A stretch of DNA of 64,000 nt from NCBI GenBank assembly GCA_020746835.1, contig JAGPNK010000001.1:2542001-2606000 (forward strand), read 5' to 3'. Of this stretch, positions 38,920-64,000 are shown one piece after another (within the stretch, counting starts at the first letter, position 1; each line of letters opens with the position of its first letter). The stretch comes from Stachybotrys elegans. Lineage: Eukaryota > Ascomycota > Sordariomycetes > Hypocreales > Stachybotryaceae. The position numbers and the translations under genes were made by a program. Below the pieces are notes generated by a model, which was given only the letters and a program-made list of their open reading frames with translations, ran no database searches and was not told where the DNA came from.

Positions 38920-41225
38920 ATGCGTGTCTTGTGCGTGGCGGAGAAGCCCTCCATCTCCAAGGCTGTTGCTGGGCATCTCTCGGGCGGCAGCCTGCAGACC
39001 GTAAGTTTGCACGCTCACCGTCCCGTCCCCATCATTGCTGCATCATAGACGTCCCCTGTTGACCGCCACAACCACAGCACAACACCCGCACGCAGTACAT
39101 CAAGAACTACGCGTTCAATTTCGACTTTGGACAGCAATGGGGACAATGCGACGTGACAATGACCTGCGTTACCGGCCACTTGACCAATGTCGAGTTTCCT
39201 GACCAGTACAAGAACTGGAGTCACCCGCCCCCCGAGTCTCTCTTTGAGGCGCCAGTCATTACCGGTGTTCACGATGTAGGCCAAACTATCCGCGCCACGG
39301 CCACTCCGGGAGGTTGACACAGGCCTAGGACAAGAAGATGATTGCCAAGAACATTGCAGACCAGGCCAAGTATGCCGCCCTCTTGGTTATTTGGACCGAT
39401 TGTGATCGAGAAGGAGAGCACATCGGCCAGGAGATTGTTGACGCGGCACGCAAGGGGAACAACAACATACAGGTCAAGCGTGCCAGATTCAGCAACGTGG
39501 AGAGAGCGTAGGTGGTTGCAAGACCCCGACTCGAGATGTGGATGTGTGCTGACGATCCATACAGCCATGTGCTCTCAGCTGCGAGACAGCTTGCCGATCT
39601 GGACGAGAAACAAGTCAATGCCGTCGCCGCCAGAATCGAACTGGACCTACGCATCGGCTATGCCTTCACCCGCTTCATGACAAACAACCTCAGATCCCTC
39701 GGCGGCCCTATGGAGAAGATGACGCTCAGCTATGGTACGTGGCAGAAGAAGAGGAAGAAAAACCGGCCCGTTGTAGCCCCCAGCTAACTCGACTTGCCAG
39801 GCTCATGTCAATTTCCAACGCTCGGATTCGTGGTGGAGCGATACTTCCGTGTCAAGAACTTCGTACCGGAGCCGTTCTGGAGCATCAGGCTCATGCACAT
39901 GCGTGATGGCAAGAAGGTCAACTTTACCTGGGCCAGGAACCACCTCTTCGACCGCATGGCCGTGGTCGTCATGTACGAGAGGTGTCTGGCGGCCAAGACA
40001 GCCAAAGTCTCAAAGGTTCAGGAAAAGCCAACCAGGAAATTCAAACCGCTACCTCTTACCACAGTCGAATTGCAGAAAGCTGCGACGCGTCTACTCCGTA
40101 TGAGTGGTCAGCAGGCCATGACAATCGCCGAGGGCCTCTACAACAAGGGGTTCATCAGCTACCCAAGAACCGAAACCGACAGGTTTGACAAGGGCATCAA
40201 CCTGAGGGCGCTGGTGCAGAAACAGGCATCGGATCAGCGATGGGGCCAATACGCCCAAGGCCTGGTCAACGGTGCGTTCCAACAGCCTAGGGAAGGCTCC
40301 CACGACGACAAAGCACATCCACCCATCCATCCAATTGTCCATGCCGCCCCGAGTGTACTCAATCACGACGAAGGACGGTTGTACGAATATGTCGTTCGAC
40401 GCTTCCTCGCATGCTGCTCCGAGGACGCAAAGGGCATGGCGACAGATGTCGAACTCCAATTCGGCGACGAATTCTTCAACGCACACGGAGTGGTGGTGGT
40501 TGAGCGCAACTATCTGGACGTGTACGTATACGAAAACTGGAATACTGCAGAGCTGCCCAAATTCACCCTCGGGGAGCGCTTTGAGCCAACCGAAGCCATG
40601 ATGAGCGAAGGCAAGACGTCGCCGCCCAACTACCTGACTGAAGCCGACCTGATCGCCCTTATGGATGCCAACGGAATTGGCACGGATGCCACCATGGCAG
40701 AGCACATCCAGAAGATTCAGGACAGGGAGTATGTCGCCACCATTGACCGCATGGGGACAGATACAGACGGGGACGACGGACAGGATGCCGGCGCCTCCTC
40801 CAGAGGGGGACGAGGTGGACGCGGTGGTAGAGGGGGGCGAGGAGGCAGAGGCCGCGGAGGTGCAGCATCAACCAGCGGAAGAAGGGGTGGCCTCAGAGTA
40901 TTTGTCCCTACCCAACTGGGCGTCGCGCTGATATTGGGCTTTGATCGAATGAACTTCGAGACGAGCCTTGGCAAGCCCTTTCTGAGAAAGGAAATGGAGC
41001 TCAAAATGAAGGCCATCTGCGATGGTCGTACCACCAAAGCTGTGGTTCTTCAGGAGAGTATCGCGCAATACCGTCGCGTATTCCTCCAGTCACAACAGAA
41101 GCTAGACGTCTTACGAGCAGTACAACCCCCCCCCTTCCGTTCCTCTTCACATGCGACTGGCTGAGATGCAGCTGACGTCTATCTAGGCATGCCGTGAATT
41201 CGTGTTTGCCCAAACCGCGAGTTAG
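38920..41225 (+). CDS. top3: DNA topoisomerase III
   Basis: Type IA topoisomerase that works with a RecQ helicase and Rmi1 to dissolve recombination intermediates. Six exons (38920-39000, 39078-39275, 39329-39507, 39565-39734, 39801-41119, 41187-41225) join in phase to about 661 residues. The Toprim domain shows Glu8 in VAEKPS and the DCDRE triad at residues 117-121 (IWTDCDREGEHIG). The catalytic tyrosine is Tyr330 in GFISYPRTETDRF. Later family motifs are GIGTDATMAEHIQKI, REYV and FVPTQLGVALI. An RGG-rich insert (residues about 541-573, ten or so Arg-Gly-Gly units) sits between REYV and FVPT. A last tiny exon encodes ACREFVFAQTAS. An upstream in-frame ATG (38809) could add a possible mitochondrial leader. 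Confidence 0.95.
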
Positions 41226-45477: not shown

Positions 45478-45714
45478 GTACGTATCCCTGGCATCGAGTT
45501 GCGCTCACGACAACCGTGCTGTTGTTGTTGGGTGACTCAGACCTTTGCATTTGAAATTTTTTCTCCTCTCCCCCCCTTTTCACATTCAGCTATTTCTTTC
45601 CATCACGGGCACGAGCGTGTCTTCTTGTTGTGTTATATACCTTTGATCTCGCTCCGCTCTTGTGCCTGCTCCGACTCTCCGCTACTTACACTGACCGCTC
45701 TCCCGCCGTTGCAG
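45478..45714 (+). other. predicted 5'-UTR intron of the stb3-like gene
   Basis: Donor GTACGT after CTTG and acceptor GTTGCAG before ACACG, with CTGACC about 20 nt upstream as a branch-like site. The intron would be 237 bp and end 44 bp before the start codon at 45759. It would remove the in-frame upstream ATG at 45630, supporting the start chosen. Predicted only. Confidence 0.55.
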
Positions 45715-45758
45715 ACACGTTCCGAAGCATCGCATCGCAAAGCCCACCCCGATCAACA

Positions 45759-46820
45759 ATGGCTACCATGGCATCAGCTGCTCGCGATATCCCCCAGGCC
45801 TCCGCCTGCCGAGACAACTTAACTGTTGTAGCGGCCCGGAGCGACCCTGCGACTGTGGCACGATCGCATACCCTCCCGACTCCTCCCAACTCCATATCCC
45901 CTGCGTTGCCGGCGCATGGCCTCAAGGCCCAGCTCCAGAAGGCCAAGCTCGAGCCCATCGACTCCGACTTGGATCTCCAGGACGCTAGCCATGGCCCTCG
46001 CCGCGGCGTCAGTCGCTCTCCTTCTCCCGCCGGCGACGGCGCCATTACCAGTTCCCTCCTCGCCAAGCATTACCTCCCCGATATCCTCGTCAACCACGGC
46101 CCTCTGGCCATCCGTCACATCATGGGGTATCTGACCACGTCGGTCCCTGGCTTCTCGGGTATCCCCCCCACCAAGGCGCGGAGGCTGGTGGTGGGAGCCC
46201 TAGAGGGCCGGGGTGTCGAAGGTGCCGGAGCCGACGGTGACGTCCAGTATGAGAAGGTAGGATGGGGTCGGTGGGACGCTCGCCGCCGGGGACAAGCGGC
46301 TCGCAAGCGTCAGGGAACACCGCCCTCGTCCTACACGACTGGCATTCCCATCTCCAAGACGGGCACGCGTGGTCTTGAGAGGCCGCGCGCCAACGGATCT
46401 GGATCAAGTGGCGGTGACTCCATCAGCTTCTCGCATGACGATCATGACATGCCCGAAGACGAGGCTGATAAGATGTCCATGGATGGGTATGAGTCAGCGT
46501 CTTGCTCCGAGGCCCCGGATGATGACGTTGTTATGAAAGACGACCCGGAAGATGTCACCGACGACGAGGACTGGGCTGCCATGGGAGCAGCGGCTCTTCG
46601 CGCCGACTCGTACCCGAACATGGCGGCCGCCCTTTCGGACCGCAACCACCCTTCCTCCCAGTCCTATGGCTTTGGCGGAATCCGGTCCTTCTCCGCCAGC
46701 TCCGGCATGGCTCGCCCGCCGCCGCAGCCCCTCAATATGGACTTTTCGGCTTTTGCTGGCACCTCGGACGCACAGGAGCGCGAGGCCGTCGAGGCACTTC
46801 TTCGTCTCGGTTCTGTATAA
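45759..46820 (+). CDS. Stb3-like Sin3-binding transcription factor
   Basis: An intronless coding region of 353 residues from the ATG of MATMASAARDI. The conserved block at about residues 95-180 matches the fungal Sin3-binding (Stb3) domain: SLLAKHYLPDILVNHGPLAIRHIM, YLTTSVPGFSGIPPTKARRLVVGALE, then VQYEKVGWGRWDARRRGQAARKR. In yeast, Stb3 binds the RRPE element of ribosome-biogenesis genes and represses them with the Sin3-Rpd3 deacetylase under TORC1/PKA control. The N terminus has TLPTPPNSISPALP-type Pro-directed sites, and the C-terminal half is acidic (DDDVVMKDDPEDVTDDEDW) and disordered. Target genes in this fungus are unknown. The frame continues upstream to an ATG at 45630 that lies in the predicted leader intron. 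Confidence 0.92.
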   Translation: MATMASAARDIPQASACRDNLTVVAARSDPATVARSHTLPTPPNSISPALPAHGLKAQLQKAKLEPIDSDLDLQDASHGPRRGVSRSPSPAGDGAITSSLLAKHYLPDILVNHGPLAIRHIMGYLTTSVPGFSGIPPTKARRLVVGALEGRGVEGAGADGDVQYEKVGWGRWDARRRGQAARKRQGTPPSSYTTGIPISKTGTRGLERPRANGSGSSGGDSISFSHDDHDMPEDEADKMSMDGYESASCSEAPDDDVVMKDDPEDVTDDEDWAAMGAAALRADSYPNMAAALSDRNHPSSQSYGFGGIRSFSASSGMARPPPQPLNMDFSAFAGTSDAQEREAVEALLRLGSV

Positions 46821-51745: not shown

Positions 51746-53693
51746 ATGACGCCTTCAGCCGCCGACGTGCAGCAGCCGTCTTCGGGCTCCAGCAGCAACA
51801 GCGACTCCAAGTCCACCACCCCGGCGCCCTCGAGCGTCACATCTTCAGCTTCCCAGGCCGCCGCCAGCGCTTCGTCTTCCAGCGCCGCTGACGAGAGCAC
51901 CCTGACGTGCCGCTGGAACGCCTGCAACCAAAAGTTTAGCAGCCCCGAGAACCTTTATGTAAGTCGTCCATTCCATGTCTCATCTCAACGTCTTTGCCAC
52001 ATGCGCGTCGTCGCATTTCGTCAGCTCCAAGCTATCCATTGCAAATGCGAATATAAAAACTGACAGTGCCATCCTCGTACAGGAGCACATCTGTGAGCGC
52101 CATGTTGGCCGCAAGAGCACGAACAACCTCAACCTCACTTGCCAGTGGAACTCATGCCGCACCACCACGGTGAAGCGTGATCACATCACCTCTCACATCC
52201 GTGTTCACGTTCCCCTCAAGCCTCACAAGTGTGAGTTCTGCGGCAAGTCCTTCAAGAGACCCCAGGATCTCAAGAAGCATGTCAAGACTCACGCCGACGA
52301 CTCCGTCCTGGCCCGCCCTGGCCCAGACCCTCAGGCCACCATGAACTACCGGCCTCAGCCAAAGGGTCCTACCGGCTACTATGACCACAACGGCCAGATG
52401 CGTCCCAACCCGGCTGCCTTTGGCCACCAGGGACACCCCAGCGGCTACTACTCGCATGCTCCTCAGCCGTCCACCAACTACGGCCTCTACTTCAACCAGC
52501 CCACTCTCAACACGCGCTCCGAGCACCTTGGCTACAGTGCCGCCCCCAGCTACGACCGTAAGCGCACTTACGACATGGTCGACGACTTCTTCGGCCATGC
52601 CAAGCGCCGCCAGATCGACCCGTCCTCGTACTCCCAGATTGGCCGCTCCCTGCTTCCCCTACACGGCTCGCTGTCCATTCCCAGCGGTCCCATGCCCGCC
52701 GCGGAGCACTACATGCCTCACCACGCCGCCCCGGCCGTCGTCCACGGAGGTGCTGGTCCAACCCACAACCCTCTGGCCCAGCAGTACTACCTGCCCATGC
52801 CCAACGCCCGCACTCAGAAGGACCTCGTCCAGCTCGACACCCTCCTGGGGCAGATGCAGGAGACCATCTACGAGAACGCCAACCACGCCACTGCCGGCGT
52901 CCACATCCACGGTAGCGACAACAGCTTTGGAGCCTACCGCGCCAGCCCCTCGCCCACCAGCCTGCACAGGGGCGTAGGCGGTGGCGGCGGCGGCGGCGCT
53001 GTTGCCGCTGACGGCTACCACCATCAGCCAGTCGGCGGAGGCAGCGTTGCCTCGCCGCTGACGGCCATTTCGTCCACGGGCACGCCCGCCGTGACGCCGC
53101 CGTCGAGCTCCATGTCCTACACATCAGGACACTCCCCTAGTCCCTCGTCCTCGGGCATGTCGCCCCAGTCCCGTCACAGCTCCATGGCCTCCTCTGTCAT
53201 GTACCCCAGCCTGCCGACAAGCCTGCCGGCTGTCAGCCAGGGCTTTGGCCAGTCGACCCCGACGACGCTGGGGTCTAGCTTCGAGAGCACCGAGCGCCGC
53301 CGGTACTCGGGCAGCATGCTGCAGAAGGCTCGCGCCGCGCCTCCCCGTCCGTATGAGGACGTGTCGGGAGCCTCGACGCCCAAGGCGAGCGAGTCGGCCA
53401 TGTCTATCGGGTCGCCGTCGTCCGAGTCGGAGGCCAGCGATGGGTCGCGCGAGCGTGACGAGCAGTACGACCGGTGGCTAGAGAACATGCGTGTCATCGA
53501 AACGCTGCGCAAATACGTGCAGGGCCGCTTGACGCGCAGGGAGTTTGTCGAGGACGAGGATATGCACCGCGGCGGCAGGGACGCCGAGGCCATGGACGTG
53601 GACATGCGCAGCCCCAGGAGCCCCCTGAGGGAGCTGAACCACCCCAAAGAGGGATCGTCGCTGTACCCTATCCTCCGCATGCCTGGATCCTGA
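51746..53693 (+). CDS. pacC: PacC, ambient-pH response transcription factor
   Basis: Two exons (51746-51958, 52083-53693; 124-bp GTAAGT...TACAG intron) give 607 residues. Three C2H2 fingers are complete: finger 1 C55-C60-H73-H78, split by the intron after Tyr71; finger 2 C91-C96-H109-H113; finger 3 C121-C124-H137-H141 ([21 protein letters not shown]). The order and the [14 protein letters not shown] linker are PacC/Rim101 hallmarks. In the Pal pathway, full-length PacC is cut at alkaline pH to a shorter active form that turns on alkaline genes and represses acid genes. The middle is Gly/Pro/Ser-rich; a C-terminal helical segment ([19 protein letters not shown]) and an acidic end are present. 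Upstream GCCAAG sites suggest self-control. Confidence 0.97.
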
Positions 53694-55284
53694 AACAGAG
53701 GCATTCTAGATGCCGCCTGGAACGGGCTCCTGTGTATTAGTATATGCTCTGCCCTTCCGCCCTCCCTGCCTTTCGAGACAGCAGGGATACGATCCCTATG
53801 ATAACGGCCTCGATTCACGAACATGTCCAAATGCCTGAGCATTCCTGACGACGGACTCTCGCGACTTTTACCCACCTTGTTGTTTCTTTTTCTCTTCTCT
53901 TTGGTTGGAATCTATCTCTTCTCTCGCCTTTGGCTTTTTTGTTGTCTGTGTTTCCCGCTTCTTGCCGCGATGTCCCTCCTCTCCCTTGCCCGCTGCCATG
54001 TTTCTCCTTTCTCCCTGTTTGCTGATCCCATTTCTCTACACGGGACCTGGGCTCTCCGAAAGCAAGGAAAGGTCAGGGTGCGGCCTCCGAAAAATAAAGA
54101 AAAATATGATGAAGTTCAAATTCGGCGAAAAATCACTCCATGTCTGTTGGTTAGAGAGGAAAGGGAACCTTGTTTTTTTCTTCTTCTTTTTCATATCCTG
54201 TCTTTTCTTTTGTCATGACAAGGGACACCAAAACAAAATATACATGATACCATCGTATCAACAATTGCCCTTGACTCACACTCCCCATTAGGTAGTCAAG
54301 ATGAATATGTCCTCTTCCATGTTATGTCTCTTGTGCCGTGCCGTTCCAACTAACTACAGCAGCCCGGTTTATTGTGCTCGGGTTACCGGAAAGAAAGAAA
54401 AGCCCATGGGGCAAGTATGGGAAATCTGTCGCGAACCGGATTACCCAAACGCGGGTGTTTCTCTGTCGGATCCTCCCTCGCACGGCTCGTTCCAACAAAC
54501 CCTATCCACACCAGGCGCGAGCCGTGTCTTGGTGCACACCGGCTATCTGCCACCCGTGCTCAGATGTCGATTTGCATGTCGCACAATTCGTACCCGCCGT
54601 CGGATGATATTCAGGGGTCAGTCTCTAGGGCACACTAGAGCCCTCTACACCAAAGAAAAGGAAGTTCGCCCAGAATCGCGGGGCCACGATCGCGACAGGG
54701 CGGCGGCCGAGCTGCATGTGCAATTCCGACACGACCACGATCTCCCCACGATCAAGACATGGAGGAGATGTTCCTCCGGGAATCATCCCGCGGAATGCAC
54801 ATCGACGGCTCAATTCAGCTTGCTTCTCCCCCCACGCCCAGATGGTGAGACTGAGTAAACGACTAAGCTTGGCTGGACGCTGCTATGGAAAGAATTACTC
54901 GGAAGCGCGTGAGAGAGATGGAGGGAAGTAGAGCAAGAGAATGGCTCAGAAACATGACTACCAATTGCTGCGATGGCAGCGCCATTCGGTACAATGGAGA
55001 CAGACAGGCAGAGTGAATTGGAACGAGGAGGCCTCATTTGGGAATGGAATGGCTATGAGGAATGCGAGGCTGGGCGCGAACGAGCCGACAACGCGAGCAT
55101 GAGGCATCGCGAGCCCAGGACTTTGAGCTCCTATAAGAAGACCCGGACGGCGATGCTCTTGGAAGTCCGCTTTCGACATGGTCAGCCAGGACAGCACGAA
55201 GACGCCGTACTAACACCTCCCCTTCCCCTCTAACCAACAGCACAGCAGTCCGGGATATACAGCTTCCCCCCGCCCGTGCCCGCC
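53694..55284. other. spacer upstream of the giant repeat gene
   Basis: 1.6 kb with no gene. The left part is T-rich (53880-54230) and belongs to the pacC 3' region. A TATA-like CTATAAG at 55131-55137 lies about 150 bp before the start codon of the giant gene, a plausible core promoter. Short open frames here are not credible. Confidence 0.5.
55132..55138 (+). promoter_or_regulatory. possible TATA box of the giant repeat gene
   Basis: TATAAGA lies about 150 bp upstream of the ATG at 55285. Position and sequence are compatible with a core promoter, but no transcript start is known. Confidence 0.35.
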
Positions 55285-58200
55285 ATGAGAGCCTGTATCC
55301 TCGCAGGCCTCCTGCTGGGCGGCGCCCTCGCCGCTCCCGAGGACGGACACCTCGGCCAGCGCCAGGCGCCCGACATTGTCGAGTCGCTCCCGCCGTCGTA
55401 CGCCCAGGGCAGCTGGCCTGCTCCCACGAGCGCCGGCGCGCCGGCCAACCCCTTTTCGCAGCTTCTGCCGGCCAGGCCCGTGCCCCCCGTCAACAACGAC
55501 CCGACCGCCTGCTGCTGCTGCGACGTGCTGGCCCGCAAGGTCGTCTGCTCGCACGCCGTCAGCCGCGACAGCTGCTCCTGCGCCAACATCCCCTGCCCCG
55601 CCGACGCCTCGACCGTCTGGCTCTCTTCTGCCGGGGTCCCGCATCCCACCCGGCTCCCGCTTTCGATCCCCGGCGCACCCGCTGTGCCCTCGGCCCCGGT
55701 TCCCGTTTTCACGGGTCTCCCTCTGCCCAACAACAACCCCTCCCTGCCGCAGAACCCGCTGTCGTGGGATCCTCAGCTCAGCAACATCGCCAACCTCCCC
55801 AATGCCCTGACGCAGAGGCCCCAAGGTATCCCCACGGCGCTGCCCAACCCGCTCAGCGGCCTTGGCCTCCCCTCGGCTCTTCCTGCGCAGCCCAGCGTCC
55901 CGGGACTGCCGAATGGCCCTAACAATCCATTTCCGATCCCGTCTGCGCCCGCTGCCGGCTTCCCAAGTGTCCCTGGCGCTCCTCAGGTGCCCAGTGTGCC
56001 GACGCCAGGAGTCCCCGCGCCTGGTTTCCCCAGCATCCCCAGTGTCCCGAGGCCGTCTATCCCCGGCGCACCCAACTTCCCTGCTCAGCCTCAGGTGCCA
56101 TCGGCAGGTGTTCCCAACATCCCGTCCATCGCTTTCCCAGATGGGCTTGCCGCTTCTATCTCCCTCGGGCTGAATCTCCCGGAGCTTGCTCTGCCAACTG
56201 GCCTCCCGAGACCCTCTATCCCGGGAGCACCCAATTTTCCGTCTCAGCCCCAGGTGCCGTCGGCGGGTGTTCCCAACATCCCGTCTATCGCTTTCCCAGA
56301 TGGGCTCGCTGCTTCCATCTCCCTTGGGCTGAACCTACCGGAGCTTGTTCTACCGACTGGTGCCCCGAACGCCCCGGGGCTGCCCCAGTTCTCTGCTCCC
56401 GGCCAGCCCAGCTTTCCTGGATTCCCGAATGACCCTGCGGCTGGGTTGCCCACGATCCCCGGGGTCCCACGCCCGTCTGCCCCTGTTGCTGGCTTCCCCA
56501 GCATTCCCAATGTGCCTCAGCCTTCGGCCCCGGGCCTTCCCACCGTTGGACTCCCTGGCAATCCTGGGATACCGACTGGTCTGCCTCAGATTCCCAACGG
56601 CCCAAGCCAGCCCAATATCCCGGGTCAGCCCAATGTACCATCTCTCGGTCTACCAACTATTCCGCGACCCTCTATCCCCGGCCAGCCTAATGTACCGACT
56701 CCTGGATTCCCCAATGCTCCGGGGCAGCCCAATGTTCCTTATCCCTCTATTCCTGGTCAGCCCAATATTCCAGGACAACCTAATATCCCTACTCCAGGGT
56801 TCCCTAATGTTCCTGGCCAGCCAAACATTCCCCAGCCATCCCTTCCTGGGCAGCCTAATGTCCCAGGTCTACCCAGTATCCCTACTCCTGGGTTCCCTAA
56901 TGCTCCGGGACAGCCCAATATTCCTCAGCCTTCTATTCCAGGACAGCCCAGCATCCCTACTCCTGGGTTCCCGAATGTTCCTCAACCGTCTATTCCTGGT
57001 CAGCCAAACCTCCCAGGACAGCCCAATCTTCCTCAGCCTTCCCTTCCTGGCCAGCCCAACATCCCAGGACAACCTAGCATCCCTACTCCCGGGCTGCCAA
57101 ATGTTCCAGGCCAGCCGAATGTACCATCTCTCGGCCTACCGACGATCCCTCAGCCTTCTATTCCTGGCCAGCCCAACATCCCGGGTCTACCAAGCGTCCC
57201 TACTCCTGGGTTCCCAGATGTCCCTGGGGCACCAAATGTGCCCAGCGCCGGGTTGCCAAACATGCCTCAGCCCTCTTTTCCTGGCCAGCCGAATATCCCG
57301 GGTCTGCCAAGTGTCCCTACTCCTGGATTCCCTAGTAACCCAGAACAGCCCAATGTCCCTGGGGGACCGAATGCCCCCAGCGTGGGTTTGCCAACCGTTC
57401 CTCGACCTTCTATTCCAGGCCAGCCTGATATCCCAAGCATCCCTACTCCCGGGTTCCCCAATGCCCCCAGTGTCCCCGGCCAGTCAAACTTCCCTCAGGT
57501 GCCAAACGGGCCGAGCGTGGGACTGCCTGCTATCCCGACACCAGGTCTGCCAAATGTCCAGATCCCCGGCGCCCCCAATACTCCAAGCTTCCCATTCCCA
57601 TCGGCTCCTGGTCAGCCACAAATCCCGGGATCACCAAACCTGCCATCGCCCGGGCTGCCTGGTATCCCAACTCCTGGTGCTCCCAACATTCCGTTCCCGT
57701 CGGTCCCTGGCCAGCCCCAAGGCCCTGGGTCACCAAATCTACCATCCCCTGGATTGCCTGGCGTTCCAACCCCTGGTGCGCCTAACAGTCCCTTCCCATC
57801 GGTTCCTGGTCAGCCTCAAGTCCCTGAGATTCCTGGTATCCCGACTCCTGGATTGCCAAACCTACCTTCACCAGGGCTTCCTGGTGTTCCAACCCCTGGG
57901 GCTCCTAATGTCCCGTTCCCCTCGGTCCCTGCTTCTCTGAACCTGCCGTCCCCAGGGCTGCCTGGTATTCCAACTCCTGGTGTTCCCAACCTCCCTTTCC
58001 CTTCAGTCCCTGGTCAGCCTCAAGTTCCGAGCGTTCCTAGTATCCCAACTCCTGGATCACCAAACCTGCCAACCCCTGGGCTCCCCGGCATTCCGACCCC
58101 CGGTGCACCTAATGCCCCCTTCCCTTCGGTCCCTGGTCGGCCTGATCTTGCTTTCCCTAGTGCACCAGGCGCGCCGAACGTAGGATTCCCCTCGGGATTC

Positions 58201-61200
58201 CCTCAGCTGAACTTCCCAGGGCAACCGAATGCGCCTAGCGCGGGCTTGCCTTCAGGACTGCCAAATCTGAATATCCCATCTGGACTTCCTCAAATTAGCA
58301 TTCCGGGTCAGCCCAATATTCCTACTCCTAGTCTTCCCGCTGGGCTCCCTCAGATCAGTATTCCAGGTCAGCCCAACATTCCTACGCCTGGTCTGCCCAC
58401 TGGCCTACCTCAGTTGAATATTCCATCAGGACTCCCTCAGATTAGCATTCCGGGCCAGCCTAATATTCCAACTCCCGGCCTTCCTTCTGGGCTACCTCAG
58501 CTGAATATCCCATCCGGACTTCCTCAAATTAGTATTCCGGGTCAGCCTAATATTCCTACTCCTGGCCTTCCCAGTGGGCTACCGCAGTTGAATATCCCGT
58601 CTGGGCTCCCTCAAATCAGCATTCCGGGTCAACCTAATATTCCAACTCCTGGGCTTCCCACTGGGTTGCCTCAGCCTAATGTTCCTGGCCAGCCTAACAT
58701 TCCGACCGCTGCACTTCCTTCAGGTCTGCCGAATCTGAATATCCCGTCAGGACTCCCACAGGTCAATATCCCAGCGCAGCCCAGCTTCCCCGGAAGACCA
58801 GCGTTGCCTGCCTTGGAGACACCCGGCGTCCCGAATATCCCTGGAGTACAAGTCCCCTCAGGGCTTCCTACGCCACCCGGCTCGCCGGCTATTCCTACTC
58901 CTGGCATGCCCGGTGGTCCTTCTCTGCCCTCTGGGTTCCCCAGCGCACCAGGGCTGCCAAACGCTCCCACGCCAGGTCTGCCTTCTATTCCAGGCCTTCC
59001 CACGCCTCCTGGAACCCCTAACATCCCGTCTATTGGGCTACCAGATGGCCTCGGCCTTTCTGTTTCGCTGGGACTCAACCTACCTAGCCTCCCAACGCCT
59101 GGTCTCCCGGAAGGCCCCAATATCCCGTCGGGTCTGCCGAACCTGTCTAACATCCAGGTTCCAACCCCTGGTATACCTGGTTTCCCTTCTATTCCAACTC
59201 CCGGGCTGCCTAGCATTAATATTCCCACGCCTGGCATTCCTAATGGTCCATCTGGTCTGCCTAACATTAATATTCCCACGCCTGGAATTCCTAATGGCCT
59301 GTCCGGCCTGCCTAACATTAATATTCCTACACCTGGAATTCCTAATGGCCCGTCCGGTCTGCCCAGCTTCCCCAATGTCCCGACGCCTGCTATTCCTGGG
59401 TCTCCGAACATCCCGACTCCCGCTATACCTGGTTTCCCTAATGTGCCAACGCCTGGCCTTCCCAATGTTCCATCATTGAGCCTGCCAGACACCCTTGGGG
59501 TCTCATTGTCATTGGGGCTGAACCTTCCTGAAGGCCTCCCTTCTTTTGGTCTCCCTAGTATCCCAACACCTGGGCTGCCAGGCCTCCCTACGCCGGGTTT
59601 CCCCAACGTGCCGTCCCTTGGCCTGCCGTCTCCTGGCCTGCCGTCTCCTGGCATTCCGGCTCTCCCTACGCCAGGTGTCCCTAACGTGCCGACTCCTGGT
59701 CTGCCGGGTCTCCCTACCATCGGTCTGCCTGATGTTATCGGCGCTACTGTTTCTCTCGGTCTTAACCTGCCTGAGATTCCTACTGGTCTACCTACGGCTG
59801 GTTTGCCTGACATTCCCACGATTGCTTTGCTCAACGGCCCAGCTCTATCTGGTCTCCCTAACATCCCGACCCCTGGTCTGCCTGGCGTTCCGGCACCCAG
59901 TAGACCTGTTTTCTCTTTTAGAGTGTTGGACCGTCCGAGTGTTGCTCTCCCTGCAATCCCGACTCCCGGTTTGCCAAACATACAACCCAGCATTCCAGGG
60001 ATACCGGGTGCTCCCAGCGTCGCTCTGCCGTCAGGTCTGCCTGCTATTCCCTCGGTTGGTGGCCCCGCCATACCGACCCCTGGCCTGCCGAGCATCCCCG
60101 GTCTACCTAACCCTGCTCAGCCGAGCTTCCCGGCCGGACCCGATGTCCCGGGGCTGCCTAACGGTTCCGGCTTGCCGACGCCGCCGGCTCTCACTCCTCC
60201 GGCCGTGGGTCTACCTTCGGGCCTGCCGAGCATTCCCAGCATACCCGGTCTTCCAGCTCAACCCAGTTTCCCTGCCAGGCCCGAGGTGCCTTCGCCGGCC
60301 TTGCCCAGTATTCCTGGACTTCCTAGCCTCCCGACCCCAGGACTCCCAGGTGTTCCTGAAGTACCAACGCCGGCTTTGCCAAGTGTTCCTGGGGTCCCTA
60401 ATGTCCCTACACCTGCTTTACCTAGCATTCCTGGGCTCCCCAATGTCCCAAGCGCTGGTCTCCCATCGGTAGCACCAAACATCCCTCAGCCATCTCTGCC
60501 TAGTATCCCCGGCGTGCCTAACCTGCCGACACCTGGCCTGCCGAGTGGTCTTCCTACCATACCATCCGCCGTCCTGCCAAGCATACCCGGTCTCCCGAAC
60601 CTGCCAACCCCTGGCGTCCCCAGTATCCCAGGCACGCCCAGCCTACCAACTCCCGGTCTGCCGAACAGTCCTCCAGCTGTGCCGTCTGCTAGTGTCCCCG
60701 GTCTCCCAACTCCTGGTCTGCCTAGCATTCCTGGATTCCCGAGCCTACCGACTCCCGGGCTACCTAGCATACCCGGCGCACCTAGCCTGCCAACGCCCGG
60801 AGCCCCGAACATCCCAACGCCCGGTCTGCCGAGTATTCCAGGAGCTCCCAACCTACCGACTCCTGGCATACCCAGCATACCTGGCGTACCTAGCCTCCCG
60901 ACTCCTGGAGTTCCGAACCTGCCAACTCCCGGCGCACCTGGCCTACCGAGTCCCGGTCTACCAAGCCCCGGTCTACCAAGCATTCCCGGAGCTCCGAACC
61001 TGCCGACTCCTGGAGTCCCAAGCCTGCCAACGCCAGGACTGCCTAGCATTCCTGGCATCCCTAACCTACCGACCCTAAGTGTGCCAAATGGTCTTCCTGC
61101 TGTCCCGTCAGCTGGCTTGCCTAGTATTCCTGGAGCCCCGAACCTACCCACCCCTGGAGCCCCGAATGTGCCAACGCCCGGCCTGCCTAGTATCCCTGGT

Positions 61201-63345
61201 GCACCCAACCTACCGACCCCCAGCTTGCCTAACGGTCTTCCAACTGTGCCGTCGGCTGGTCTCCCAAGCATTCCTGGATCTCCGAACCTACCGACGCCCG
61301 GGCTGCCGAGTATTCCTGGAGTCCCGAATGTACCAACCCCAGGCCTGCCTAGTATTCCCGGCGCACCAAACCTGCCAACACCCGGTCTGCCTAGCATCCC
61401 AAGCATCCCTACCATACCGACTCCCAGCCTGCTGAACGGTCCTCCTGCGGTCCCGTCTGCCGGTTTGCCAAGCATTCCTGGAGTCCCAAATCTGCCAACG
61501 CCTGGCCTCCCTAGTATACCGGGCGCACCTAACCTGCCGACGCCTGGTCTGCCGAGCATTCCTGGTGCACCTAATCAACCAACCCCCAGCCTGCCAAATG
61601 GTCCTCCTTCTGTCCCATCTGCCGGACTCCCCAGCATCCCTAACATACCAACCCTAAGCCTCCCGAACGGTCTTCCTCAGGTGCCAACTCCCGGCCTGCC
61701 CAGTATCCCCGGCGCACCCAACCTCCCGACACCTGGTCTGCCAACTCCGGGTCTGCCGACTCCTGGTCTGCCTAGCATCCCTGGTGCACCAAACCTGCCG
61801 ACTCCAGGCTTGCCGACTCCTGCTCTTCCTAGTGGTTTACCCACAGTACCCTCCGCTGGTCTGCCGAGTATTCCTGGAGCACCGAACCTACCCACTCCTG
61901 GCCTACCAACTCCTGGTGTTCCCAGTGGTCTGCCTACAGTGCCCTCTGCCGGCCTGCCAAGCATTCCTGGAGCTCCGAATCTACCCACTCCTGGCCTGCC
62001 TAGTGGTTTCCCTGCTGTACCCTCCGCCGGCTTGCCCAGCATTCCTGGAGCCCCCAACCTACCGACCCCTGGTCCGCCTAATGTACCAACTCCAGGTCTG
62101 CCGAGTGGTTTCCCTGCGGTGCCCTCCGCCGGCCTGCCGAGTATTCCTGGAGTCCCGAACCTCCCCACTCCCGGTCTGCCGAGTGGTCTGCCTGCGGTGC
62201 CCTCGGCTGGCCTGCCAAGCATTCCTGGAGCTCCAAATCTACCTACTCCTGGTCTGCCTAGTGGTTTCCCTGCGGTGCCTTCCGCCGGCCTGCCCAGCAT
62301 TCCTAGCCTGCCGACCCCGAGCCTGCCGAATGGTCTCCCTGCCGTGCCGTCCGCGGGCATCCCCAACTTCTCTATCCCCCAGCCCAATGTTCCTAGCATC
62401 CCAGGCTTCCCCAATGTTCCGTCTCAGGGTCTGCCGAATACACCAACGGTGCCAACTCAAGGCATCCCAACTATCCCAGGCTTCCCGATCCCGTCTGGAG
62501 TGCCCAATGTCCCCCAGCCCAGTCTTCCTGGCCTTCCCAGCATTCCCGTCCTTCCCTCCGGACAGCCCGGCCTGCCCACGCTGCCTCTCCCCTCTGGGCA
62601 GCCAGCTATTCCGACTCCTGTCATTCCTGGTGCCCCGACATTCGCGCTCCCCTCTGGCGTCCCGGCTCAGCCAAGTATTCCAGGTGCTCCCTCTCTCCCT
62701 TTCCCCCCGGTCCAGATTCCTGGCGCCCCTACTATTCCCGCTATACCCAATCTCCCATCGAACTTCCCACCCAGCTTCCCCAGCATCCCCGCTGTTCCGA
62801 GTCTCCCCAATCCTTCGGATCTACCGGCTATCCCATCTGGCGTGCCAACATTCCCCAACCGTCCTCAGCTCCCTGGCCAGTCTAATCCGGTTCTGCCCAC
62901 TCTGCCAGCTATTCCTACTCTGCCGGTTCTGCCCACCTTGCCGGTCGCGCCTTCGATCCCCGGCCTATCGGGCATACCTACGACTAAGCCCAATATAATC
63001 CCCACCTTGCCGCTGCCTATCAGTACGCCGGCGGTTCCCAGTGTCCCTGTTGTACCGACTCCTCCCGCGCCAACCTCGCGATCTAAAACCAGCTCGGTGC
63101 CGTGGTGGGTTATTCAGCCAACGAGTGGCCCCTACGGCAACTGCTGCTGCTGCTGTGACGCCTTCACCGGCGTCGTCAACTGCCAGGAGGTGGCTTCCGG
63201 CGGCTCATGCGTGTGCCCTGCGGTGCAATGTCCCAGCAACGCCCCGACTGTCTATTACCCGATCTCGACTGCCTCCTCTACTTCCAGGTCCTTCTCCACG
63301 TCGACTACTCGTGGCCTGGCTCTCCCGGCCCTCCCCACCCTCTAG
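55285..63345 (+). CDS. giant secreted Pro-rich repeat protein with matching Cys-rich modules at both ends
   Basis: A single 8.06-kb exon codes for 2,686 residues. Residues 1-17 are a signal peptide (MRACILAGLLLGGALAA), followed by a short linker with a possible processing site (LGQRQ). A Cys-rich module at residues 75-112 has four adjacent Cys (76-79), then C88, C97, C99 and C104. Residues about 113-2605 are low-complexity repeats with Pro at nearly every third residue (hydrophobic-Pro-small), such as GLPSIPGAPNLPTPG and GQPNIPTPGFPNVP. A second Cys-rich module at 2618-2657 has five adjacent Cys (2620-2624), then C2633, C2642, C2644 and C2649. The tail is Ser/Thr-rich with no clear GPI signal. 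I do not recognise a family. It resembles structural rods such as collagen-like or elastin-like proteins only in spirit: Gly is not at every third place. A cell-wall or extracellular fibre role is inferred. The GTG codon at 55276 is in frame but the ATG at 55285 is the start. Confidence 0.9.
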   Translation: MRACILAGLLLGGALAAPEDGHLGQRQAPDIVESLPPSYAQGSWPAPTSAGAPANPFSQLLPARPVPPVNNDPTACCCCDVLARKVVCSHAVSRDSCSCANIPCPADASTVWLSSAGVPHPTRLPLSIPGAPAVPSAPVPVFTGLPLPNNNPSLPQNPLSWDPQLSNIANLPNALTQRPQGIPTALPNPLSGLGLPSALPAQPSVPGLPNGPNNPFPIPSAPAAGFPSVPGAPQVPSVPTPGVPAPGFPSIPSVPRPSIPGAPNFPAQPQVPSAGVPNIPSIAFPDGLAASISLGLNLPELALPTGLPRPSIPGAPNFPSQPQVPSAGVPNIPSIAFPDGLAASISLGLNLPELVLPTGAPNAPGLPQFSAPGQPSFPGFPNDPAAGLPTIPGVPRPSAPVAGFPSIPNVPQPSAPGLPTVGLPGNPGIPTGLPQIPNGPSQPNIPGQPNVPSLGLPTIPRPSIPGQPNVPTPGFPNAPGQPNVPYPSIPGQPNIPGQPNIPTPGFPNVPGQPNIPQPSLPGQPNVPGLPSIPTPGFPNAPGQPNIPQPSIPGQPSIPTPGFPNVPQPSIPGQPNLPGQPNLPQPSLPGQPNIPGQPSIPTPGLPNVPGQPNVPSLGLPTIPQPSIPGQPNIPGLPSVPTPGFPDVPGAPNVPSAGLPNMPQPSFPGQPNIPGLPSVPTPGFPSNPEQPNVPGGPNAPSVGLPTVPRPSIPGQPDIPSIPTPGFPNAPSVPGQSNFPQVPNGPSVGLPAIPTPGLPNVQIPGAPNTPSFPFPSAPGQPQIPGSPNLPSPGLPGIPTPGAPNIPFPSVPGQPQGPGSPNLPSPGLPGVPTPGAPNSPFPSVPGQPQVPEIPGIPTPGLPNLPSPGLPGVPTPGAPNVPFPSVPASLNLPSPGLPGIPTPGVPNLPFPSVPGQPQVPSVPSIPTPGSPNLPTPGLPGIPTPGAPNAPFPSVPGRPDLAFPSAPGAPNVGFPSGFPQLNFPGQPNAPSAGLPSGLPNLNIPSGLPQISIPGQPNIPTPSLPAGLPQISIPGQPNIPTPGLPTGLPQLNIPSGLPQISIPGQPNIPTPGLPSGLPQLNIPSGLPQISIPGQPNIPTPGLPSGLPQLNIPSGLPQISIPGQPNIPTPGLPTGLPQPNVPGQPNIPTAALPSGLPNLNIPSGLPQVNIPAQPSFPGRPALPALETPGVPNIPGVQVPSGLPTPPGSPAIPTPGMPGGPSLPSGFPSAPGLPNAPTPGLPSIPGLPTPPGTPNIPSIGLPDGLGLSVSLGLNLPSLPTPGLPEGPNIPSGLPNLSNIQVPTPGIPGFPSIPTPGLPSINIPTPGIPNGPSGLPNINIPTPGIPNGLSGLPNINIPTPGIPNGPSGLPSFPNVPTPAIPGSPNIPTPAIPGFPNVPTPGLPNVPSLSLPDTLGVSLSLGLNLPEGLPSFGLPSIPTPGLPGLPTPGFPNVPSLGLPSPGLPSPGIPALPTPGVPNVPTPGLPGLPTIGLPDVIGATVSLGLNLPEIPTGLPTAGLPDIPTIALLNGPALSGLPNIPTPGLPGVPAPSRPVFSFRVLDRPSVALPAIPTPGLPNIQPSIPGIPGAPSVALPSGLPAIPSVGGPAIPTPGLPSIPGLPNPAQPSFPAGPDVPGLPNGSGLPTPPALTPPAVGLPSGLPSIPSIPGLPAQPSFPARPEVPSPALPSIPGLPSLPTPGLPGVPEVPTPALPSVPGVPNVPTPALPSIPGLPNVPSAGLPSVAPNIPQPSLPSIPGVPNLPTPGLPSGLPTIPSAVLPSIPGLPNLPTPGVPSIPGTPSLPTPGLPNSPPAVPSASVPGLPTPGLPSIPGFPSLPTPGLPSIPGAPSLPTPGAPNIPTPGLPSIPGAPNLPTPGIPSIPGVPSLPTPGVPNLPTPGAPGLPSPGLPSPGLPSIPGAPNLPTPGVPSLPTPGLPSIPGIPNLPTLSVPNGLPAVPSAGLPSIPGAPNLPTPGAPNVPTPGLPSIPGAPNLPTPSLPNGLPTVPSAGLPSIPGSPNLPTPGLPSIPGVPNVPTPGLPSIPGAPNLPTPGLPSIPSIPTIPTPSLLNGPPAVPSAGLPSIPGVPNLPTPGLPSIPGAPNLPTPGLPSIPGAPNQPTPSLPNGPPSVPSAGLPSIPNIPTLSLPNGLPQVPTPGLPSIPGAPNLPTPGLPTPGLPTPGLPSIPGAPNLPTPGLPTPALPSGLPTVPSAGLPSIPGAPNLPTPGLPTPGVPSGLPTVPSAGLPSIPGAPNLPTPGLPSGFPAVPSAGLPSIPGAPNLPTPGPPNVPTPGLPSGFPAVPSAGLPSIPGVPNLPTPGLPSGLPAVPSAGLPSIPGAPNLPTPGLPSGFPAVPSAGLPSIPSLPTPSLPNGLPAVPSAGIPNFSIPQPNVPSIPGFPNVPSQGLPNTPTVPTQGIPTIPGFPIPSGVPNVPQPSLPGLPSIPVLPSGQPGLPTLPLPSGQPAIPTPVIPGAPTFALPSGVPAQPSIPGAPSLPFPPVQIPGAPTIPAIPNLPSNFPPSFPSIPAVPSLPNPSDLPAIPSGVPTFPNRPQLPGQSNPVLPTLPAIPTLPVLPTLPVAPSIPGLSGIPTTKPNIIPTLPLPISTPAVPSVPVVPTPPAPTSRSKTSSVPWWVIQPTSGPYGNCCCCCDAFTGVVNCQEVASGGSCVCPAVQCPSNAPTVYYPISTASSTSRSFSTSTTRGLALPALPTL
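55507..55626 (+). other. N-terminal Cys-rich module of the giant protein
   Basis: Residues 75-114. The spacing after the four-Cys run is x8-C-x8-C-x-C-x4-C, followed by P-x2-A-x-T-V-W. It lies just after the signal peptide and linker, before the repeats. Confidence 0.85.
58261..58680 (+). repeat. 87-bp tandem repeats within the giant gene
   Basis: Units coding 29 residues (around QISIPGQPNIPTPGLP followed by GLPQLNIPSGL) recur with copy starts at about 58351, 58438, 58525 and 58612, exactly 87 bp apart, after a shortened 60-bp unit at 58291. DNA identity is high, indicating recent duplication or conversion. Confidence 0.85.
61840..62300 (+). repeat. 26-residue repeats (AVPSAGLPSIPG block) within the giant gene
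   Basis: Six or so near-identical units around SGFPAVPSAGLPSIPG followed by APNLPTPGLP, typically 78 bp each with longer variants. They differ from the N-terminal repeats, which favour IPGQPN and TPGFPN. Confidence 0.8.
63139..63258 (+). other. C-terminal Cys-rich module of the giant protein
   Basis: Residues 2619-2658. Five adjacent Cys, then x8-C-x8-C-x-C-x4-C, followed by P-x2-A-x-T-V-Y. The spacing is identical to the N-terminal module, with one extra Cys in the leading run. It lies after the repeats. Confidence 0.85.
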
Positions 63346-64000
63346 GGCCTGTGATGAGTGATTCACTGTGCGGCGGGTCTACGATTGGCCGGCCTGACTG
63401 CCTCCTTTGCGAATCATGTCTTCGGGTTTACGATAATGCGCATAATGCCTCTCACAGACACGTCTAAACTCAAGAGCTGATGTTGAACAATTTCCCTTTG
63501 CGCTGTTTTCCTTTGTCTATGTAGTCTTCAAAACGTGGTCTCTGCTTGGATAGAATGTTGAAAGAAACACACATCTGGAATGTCTCATTAACAACCTGTT
63601 TGATTTAGTACTCTACTTACTCACAATTTTCTTTTCTCTCAAAATAGACCTAGATGAATGTTTCTGCCACAAAGCCATGATTTCCCTCCATCTCCTACCC
63701 GTGAACGTGAACGTGGCATGCTGCAATCTGTAGCGTCTTATGCTTGGTCAAATACTCTGCTTGCCAGCTCTACAGGTGCTCTGCCAGGACTAGAGGTCAG
63801 CTCGATGGCATGGCTTGGTGATGAGCGATCTTGGCTTACGCTGTACCATTCCAACTAGCCACCAACGCACGCGTGTGAGCAAGCAAAAGTAATGTGATTC
63901 AGTCGTGACCGTCAGCCACGAGGCCAAAATCCAATACTTACCTACCTAGGACAAGGCTTCCATCTTTCCGAGGCAGTACATGTGCAGGAGTTGGCAGGAA
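63346..64000. other. 3' flank of the giant gene
   Basis: 655 bp with no gene. The left half is probably the 3' UTR of the giant gene. A TACCTACCTAGG word lies at about 63939-63950. Confidence 0.45.

Follow-up and report, generated by a model that had tools for sequence, protein, structure and literature searches.

Our analysis suggests that the giant protein encoded by one long open frame in the window (the whole stretch of 64,000 nucleotides of DNA that was analysed) is, with a probability of roughly 60%, a secreted, intrinsically disordered and two-ended (telechelic) structural polymer of the wall, the matrix or the spore mucilage. Its two Cys-rich ends are, as judged from alignment of their residues, copies of one 8-Cys module and thus homologous caps. 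The Pro/Gly-rich, hydrophobic core between them would remain extended as well as hydrated, in a state intermediate between a polyproline-II rod and an elastin-like coil, and at 0.31 nm per residue its contour length would reach ~770 nm at most. The 8-Cys end modules would fold via disulfides and hold the chains to each other or to the wall, and the chains would thereby assemble as fibre, film or gel within the cell wall, the extracellular matrix or the spore mucilage. A neighbouring protein of 77 aa would represent a free module which could occupy these contacts as a cap or a competitor, making it a potential chain stopper or partner.

Table 1. Features of the giant gene and its flanks, in window coordinates
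Feature	Position	Strand	Remarks
TATA-like element	55132..55141	+	~150 bp upstream of ATG, consensus match only
Giant protein coding sequence	55285..63345	+	single frame, 2,686 aa, ~261 kDa before modification
Probable signal peptide, aa 1-16, MRACILAGLLLGGALA	55285..55332	+	from hydropathy; cleavage site by eye
N-terminal Cys module, aa 76-105, CCCCDVLARKVVCSHAVSRDSCSCANIPCP	55510..55599	+	
Proline-rich core, aa 114-2600	55624..63084	+	~2,490 residues, Cys-free
Interrupting block 1, aa 278-302, with SLGLNLP	56116..56190	+	
Interrupting block 2, aa 331-355, with SLGLNLP	56275..56349	+	tandem copy of block 1 (53-aa lag, 159-nt period)
Interrupting block 3, aa 1246-1270, with SLGLNLP	59020..59094	+	
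Interrupting block 4, aa 1394-1418, with SLGLNLP	59464..59538	+	
Interrupting block 5, aa 1475-1499, with SLGLNLP	59707..59781	+	
C-terminal Cys module, aa 2621-2650, CCCCDAFTGVVNCQEVASGGSCVCPAVQCP	63145..63234	+	one extra Cys (aa 2620) just before
Ser/Thr-rich C-terminal tail	63235..63342	+	no convincing GPI signal by eye
Intergenic stretch toward small module gene	63346..64000	+	continues beyond window end
Small module gene, 77 aa	ATG at 64192 (L034:2192-2425)	+	just past window

The preliminary description had reported an uninterrupted frame of 8.06 kb, and this was borne out, since 2,686 codons are read through from the ATG at 55285 to the stop at 63345 with no internal stop. In the program-made list of open reading frames the frame begins at a GTG 9 bases 5' of this ATG, which is the likely start of the gene in the fungus. 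Over the same interval the other two forward frames contain 19 and 86 stops and the three reverse frames 56, 49 and 147. A scan for fungal-like intron patterns gave two candidates of 119 and 150 nt, which use one common 5' site at 58574 and both fall inside the open Pro-rich frame. The product consists of 29.8% Pro (800 of 2,686 residues) and 11.8% Gly and contains 3 Lys, 5 Tyr and 5 Trp. GC content at third codon positions was 0.91 over aa 1-113, 0.51 in the core and 0.65-0.81 in three nearby coding stretches.

For a view of how the repeat copies differ, the coding sequence was compared with itself in windows of 20 codons at 75% to under 100% DNA identity, which yielded 213 window pairs. Between these copies, which like the peptide pairs mentioned below share ancestry and are non-independent, so that their numbers are descriptive, 541, 346 and 2149 differences were found at codon positions 1, 2 and 3, respectively, and tallies in shifted frames located the excess at the same bases as the third codon positions. 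Synonymous changes account for 1776 of 2520 codon differences, compared with 29% of the possible single changes. The amino-acid differences (n = 744) stay within a broad residue class in 488 cases and leave it in 256, and 116 of them involve Pro. In the exactly repeated peptides of at least 14 aa (92 pairs) 45% of the codons are identical, compared with 30-32% when codons are dealt randomly. The longest perfect peptide repeat spans 57 aa and recurs after 29 aa, which means that it overlaps itself, and 34 of its 57 codons are identical. Exact DNA repeats reach 26 nt at most anywhere in the gene; codon shuffling gives a mean maximum of 22 nt, and in 96 of 100 shuffles the value was no higher than 26 nt. 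Codon scrambling beyond random was also considered and was rejected, the observed codon identity lying above and not below the shuffled range.

The repeat DNA of the giant gene has drifted far but short of saturation while the peptide has been retained, as follows from the codon identity of the 92 peptide pairs set against random dealing. The core repeat is maintained at the protein level, and the frame very likely represents a real gene. An artefact of the assembly, by which its length would have been collapsed or inflated, appears unlikely because the longest exact DNA repeat is so short. That the peptide is kept over DNA which has drifted to near-random exact matches (at most 26 nt) may help to explain the stability of the long repeat.

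The two Cys-rich ends noted in the preliminary description are confirmed by the distribution of the 18 Cys residues, which comprise one residue of the signal peptide, a group of 8 at aa 76-104 and a group of 9 at aa 2620-2649, with a count of zero in the core between the end modules. The pattern CCCCD-x7-C-x8-C-x-C-x4-CP is present in all three copies of the module, i.e. the N-terminal cap, the C-terminal cap and the 77-aa protein. The N- and C-terminal modules can be aligned over 38 residues with 42% identity, and none of 20,000 shuffles attained their score, whether CCCCD was kept in place or not. The same holds for the N-terminal module and the small protein (0 of 20,000 shuffles, and again 0 with CCCCD fixed), and the score of the C-terminal module with the small protein was reached in none of 20,000 free shuffles and in 6 of 20,000 with CCCCD held. 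The 77-aa frame starts 846 bp 3' of the giant gene's stop and combines the module with a separate signal-like N terminus. Because the caps duplicate one module that also stands alone next door, their putative role in cross-linking gains some weight. That the caps share ancestry, that a module gene lies next door and that the repeat shows a signal of selection are points which go beyond what had been described before.

A codon scan for CCCCD in the source genome, which comprises 43.4 Mb in 61 contigs, gave 36 sites compared with 7 for the reversed control pattern, and among the 30 of the 36 sites whose surroundings were inspected, one, lying past the giant gene, falls within the 77-aa frame. 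When all 43.4 Mb were searched with a typed consensus, three places were obtained, namely the two caps and the 77-aa gene, all of them within 9 kb. With single modules as queries the sensitivity was lower, the N-terminal module and the small protein each finding itself and the C-terminal module finding itself and the N-terminal one; a fourth copy, divergent or split by an intron, is therefore possible elsewhere in the genome.

For all three modules Pfam listed no family up to an E-value of 10, with filters that drop most matches above ~0.1, and neither CFEM nor any other Pfam Cys-rich domain matched one of the three. NCBIfam, whose models cover bacteria and archaea, gave no module match, and a sequence search of the PDB returned nothing for the N-terminal module alone or for a profile of the three modules. 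The AlphaFold2 models of the module have low confidence overall (mean pLDDT 59.7 and 63.5) and were judged too weak for use in full, although both contain a beta hairpin through the CCCC stretch, with a pLDDT near 80 in the second. Foldseek returned two matches to a module model, neither of them at an E-value of 0.001 or better, and no solved fold was matched. Relatives in viral and prokaryotic contig sets were found in none of four scans, which says little about fungi. Members of the module family may already have been deposited as hypothetical proteins.

The core is composed of 31% Pro, 12% Gly, 15% Ser/Thr, 25% L/I/V/F and 1.6% charged residues, and it is free of Cys and, by hydropathy, of transmembrane-like segments. 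Using the disorder measure in the form 2P+G, with the line drawn at 0.6, a value of 0.75 was obtained for the core, and 19 of 244 windows of 50 aa lie below the line. The preliminary description had proposed triplets of a hydrophobic residue, Pro and a small residue, with Pro at every third place. The order of residues can be upheld, as a residue of the set L/I/V/F/M stands before 65% of the core prolines and after 4%, while the next residue is G/S/N/T/Q/A in 92%. A strict triplet, however, cannot, since the gap between successive prolines of the protein is 3 in 489 of 799 cases, 2 in 136 and 1 in 13, and the strongest Fourier period in the core is 2.79. Runs of at least four prolines spaced by 3 cover 42% of the core, the longest containing 9 prolines.

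In four of eight core stretches examined the best repeat lags are 98, 68, 29 and 14 aa, and because these lags differ between stretches the core probably grew in several rounds. The best lag of 14 residues applies to aa 1701-2380, and LPSIPGAPNLPTPG, which has 5 prolines in 14 residues (2.8), occurs in 11 exact copies in the core. Five blocks with SLGLNLP interrupt the hydrophobic-Pro-small pattern. A genome search with a typed mosaic of the core repeats placed all 38 of the 38 places listed inside the giant gene, these counts being lower bounds. Low-complexity matches of the giant protein in Pfam to Cornifin (PF02389, 25.2 bits against a cut-off of 34.8) and to the GLTT repeat (PF01744, 17.8 bits against a cut-off of 21) were rejected. 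The earlier exclusion of a collagen G-X-Y repeat is in agreement with a longest Gly-every-third run of 3 in the core. The case for a polyproline-II-like rod, on the other hand, is weaker than had been stated, in view of the irregular spacing, the Gly content, the 2P+G value and the SLGLNLP blocks, and an elastin-like coil would fit the core as well as a stiff rod.

The N terminus of the giant protein shows a hydrophobic peak of 2.82 (9-residue Kyte-Doolittle window) followed by a cleavage site between ALA and AP as judged by eye, which is consistent with the signal peptide suggested previously. Inspection of the tail by eye for a GPI signal gave nothing convincing, the hydropathy of 10-mers within the last 22 residues peaking at 1.45.

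The next gene upstream of the giant gene (51975-53693, + strand) codes for a C2H2 zinc-finger protein, for which Pfam gives zinc-finger families only and whose zinc-finger segment and body appear similar to those of the pH regulator PacC/Rim101. A plasmid search with this protein returned one record, matched through a zinc finger that covers 9% of the query, and a PDB search returned 94 zinc-finger-type chains, with no name among the 60 of the 94 that were listed. Control of the giant locus by PacC was considered and rejected, as GCCARG occurs twice in the 1,591 bp upstream and twice in the 846-bp gap compared with 3.0 per kb window-wide, which is no enrichment. Just 5' of the ATG, the sequence at 55210-55240 resembles a branch point with a 3' splice site and may mark an intron in the 5' UTR; a matching 5' splice site was absent from the 500 bp searched.

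Past the window and downstream of the small gene, Pfam identified Zn2Cys6 and fungal-specific transcription factor stretches (L034:5494-8728, + strand), which are apparently several exons of one gene, and a possible second Cys6 cluster upstream of the one found by Pfam was seen by eye. Within the window, coding stretches for a Topoisomerase (39794-41164, + strand; Topoisom_bac, 303.5 bits) and for Stb3 (45630-46820, + strand; 128 bits) belong to ordinary fungal genes. The 5.8S rRNA was found at one place (L048) among the matches listed genome-wide, 39 of 1281 first-look candidates having been scored, and since there is only this one place among them the assembly may contain a collapsed rDNA array. 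The ITS of the source genome resembles that of Hypocreales.

By the defining tests, the giant protein is not a member of the collagens, elastins, extensins, hydrophobins or HFS proteins, and it is possible that it works like an elastomer or an extensin. Metarhizium MCL1 is likewise fungal, a surface protein with a long low-complexity part, but has a collagen-like Gly repeat, whereas the Gly-every-third runs here do not exceed 3. Spidroins also place a long repeat between two end domains, which steer assembly; their ends are helical and unlike each other, whereas both ends of the giant protein are one Cys module. Extensins are characterised by Ser followed by runs of Pro, a feature that is absent here, adjacent prolines being rare (13 of 799 gaps) and Tyr few, and they differ further from this fungal protein in its homologous Cys ends. 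What is shared with plant extensins and proline-rich tandem repeat proteins are secreted Pro-rich tandem repeats, and an extended polyproline-II rod is reported for carrot extensin (excerpt of PMC3149072). Elastin is alike in being disordered, hydrophobic and Pro/Gly-rich (excerpt of PMC5703643), as is the core with its 2P+G of 0.75; the core, however, contains no copy of VPGxG, and the 3 Lys are without cross-linking blocks, with Cys ends instead.

Hydrophobins and the HFS hyphosphere proteins are secreted fungal proteins with 8 conserved Cys, the former (~100 aa) being near the 77-aa neighbour in size and the latter measuring 219-280 aa in the species of that paper (excerpt of PMC8596622). 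The arrangement of the module is CCCC-C-CxC-C in all three copies and thus differs from both the C-CC-C-C-CC-C of hydrophobins and the C-CXXXC-C-C-C-C-C of HFS proteins (same excerpt). A proline-rich glycoprotein of the biotrophic interface of Colletotrichum is fungal, extracellular and proline-rich by its title, as given in the references of PMC5225507. The excerpts of PMC7490268 and PMC5225507 themselves held no fit to the giant protein.

The long frame might also be an unexpressed or decaying stretch of low complexity that is open only since Pro codons contain no stops, and C-rich DNA of low complexity does lengthen other frames too, one of them being open for 535 codons. Against this stand the third-position excess of changes, the peptide conserved over drifted DNA and the 19 to 147 stops in the other five frames, and we consider it very improbable. 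Mammalian salivary proline-rich proteins take up tannins and other phenols, and the giant protein could, although this seems rather improbable, be a polyphenol-binding shield, i.e. a proline-rich protein of the mucilage that sequesters tannins and other phenols around the spores while the caps only anchor it. Its 30% Pro overall and the hydrophobic residue ahead of most prolines would suit such a task, for which homologous caps and a conserved repeat order would, however, not be needed. Binding of phenols by proline-rich fungal mucilage proteins has been suggested with citation of wood-rotting basidiomycetes, and the spore matrix of Colletotrichum graminicola is described as consisting mainly of glycoprotein of high molecular weight in which hydrophobic and hydroxylic residues abound (excerpt of PMC5431061), yet the ITS of the source fungus does not look like that of Colletotrichum.

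It is quite unlikely, too, that the protein acts as a surface adhesin or effector shield somewhat like Rsp3, with caps that bind glycans of the wall or the host and a core that serves as a long spacer. Compared by description only, Rsp3 of Ustilago maydis is a fungal, secreted and repetitive protein with a signal peptide, a Gln/Pro-rich region, a Cys-rich region and long repeats, which is located on the hyphal surface and has no predicted GPI anchor; it differs in its length of ~869 aa, its layout and its one Cys region, compared with two homologous ends here (excerpt of PMC5923269). The lack of any Pfam match to the module also counts against this reading.

The structural polymer, in turn, is suggested by the make-up of the core, since its Pro and Gly, its hydrophobicity and its near lack of charge resemble elastin. 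A high content of Pro plus Gly has been described for disordered elastomers, with which the core values are in line, and the hydrophobic, Pro- and Gly-rich make-up of elastin lets it stay disordered and hydrated while aggregating (excerpt of PMC5703643). A secreted chain with one Cys-rich module at both ends would amount to a linker design. In favour of the polymer are also the signal-like N termini on both proteins, the homologous caps, the lone neighbouring module and the conservation of the repeat at the protein level. Irregular Pro spacing, five pattern-breaking blocks and low-confidence module models with no match to a solved fold count against it, as do the lack of Lys-rich blocks for cross-linking (the protein has 3 Lys) and the small number of Tyr (5), which leave the Cys ends as the only obvious links. 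Secretion, disulfides, binding of modules to each other or to the wall, elasticity and the location of the protein are inferred, whereas the single frame, the signal-like N termini, the duplicated caps, the lone module frame nearby and the conservation of the repeat peptide are directly shown.

Most of what is known about protein elastomers and fibre proteins comes from animals and plants, and to our knowledge no fungal one with homologous ends has been described; among the matches listed in the literature, judged by title and the start of the abstract, there was no such fungal example. A tentative idea, which we regard as being on the unlikely side, is that of a fungal counterpart of elastin or spider silk, in which a disordered spring carries one self-associating Cys module on each end and is accompanied by a free single module, encoded by the adjacent gene, that regulates the length of the network as chain stopper. 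If the ends do link chains, this would constitute a genetically simple two-gene system, in which the linker and the possible stopper are separately removable.
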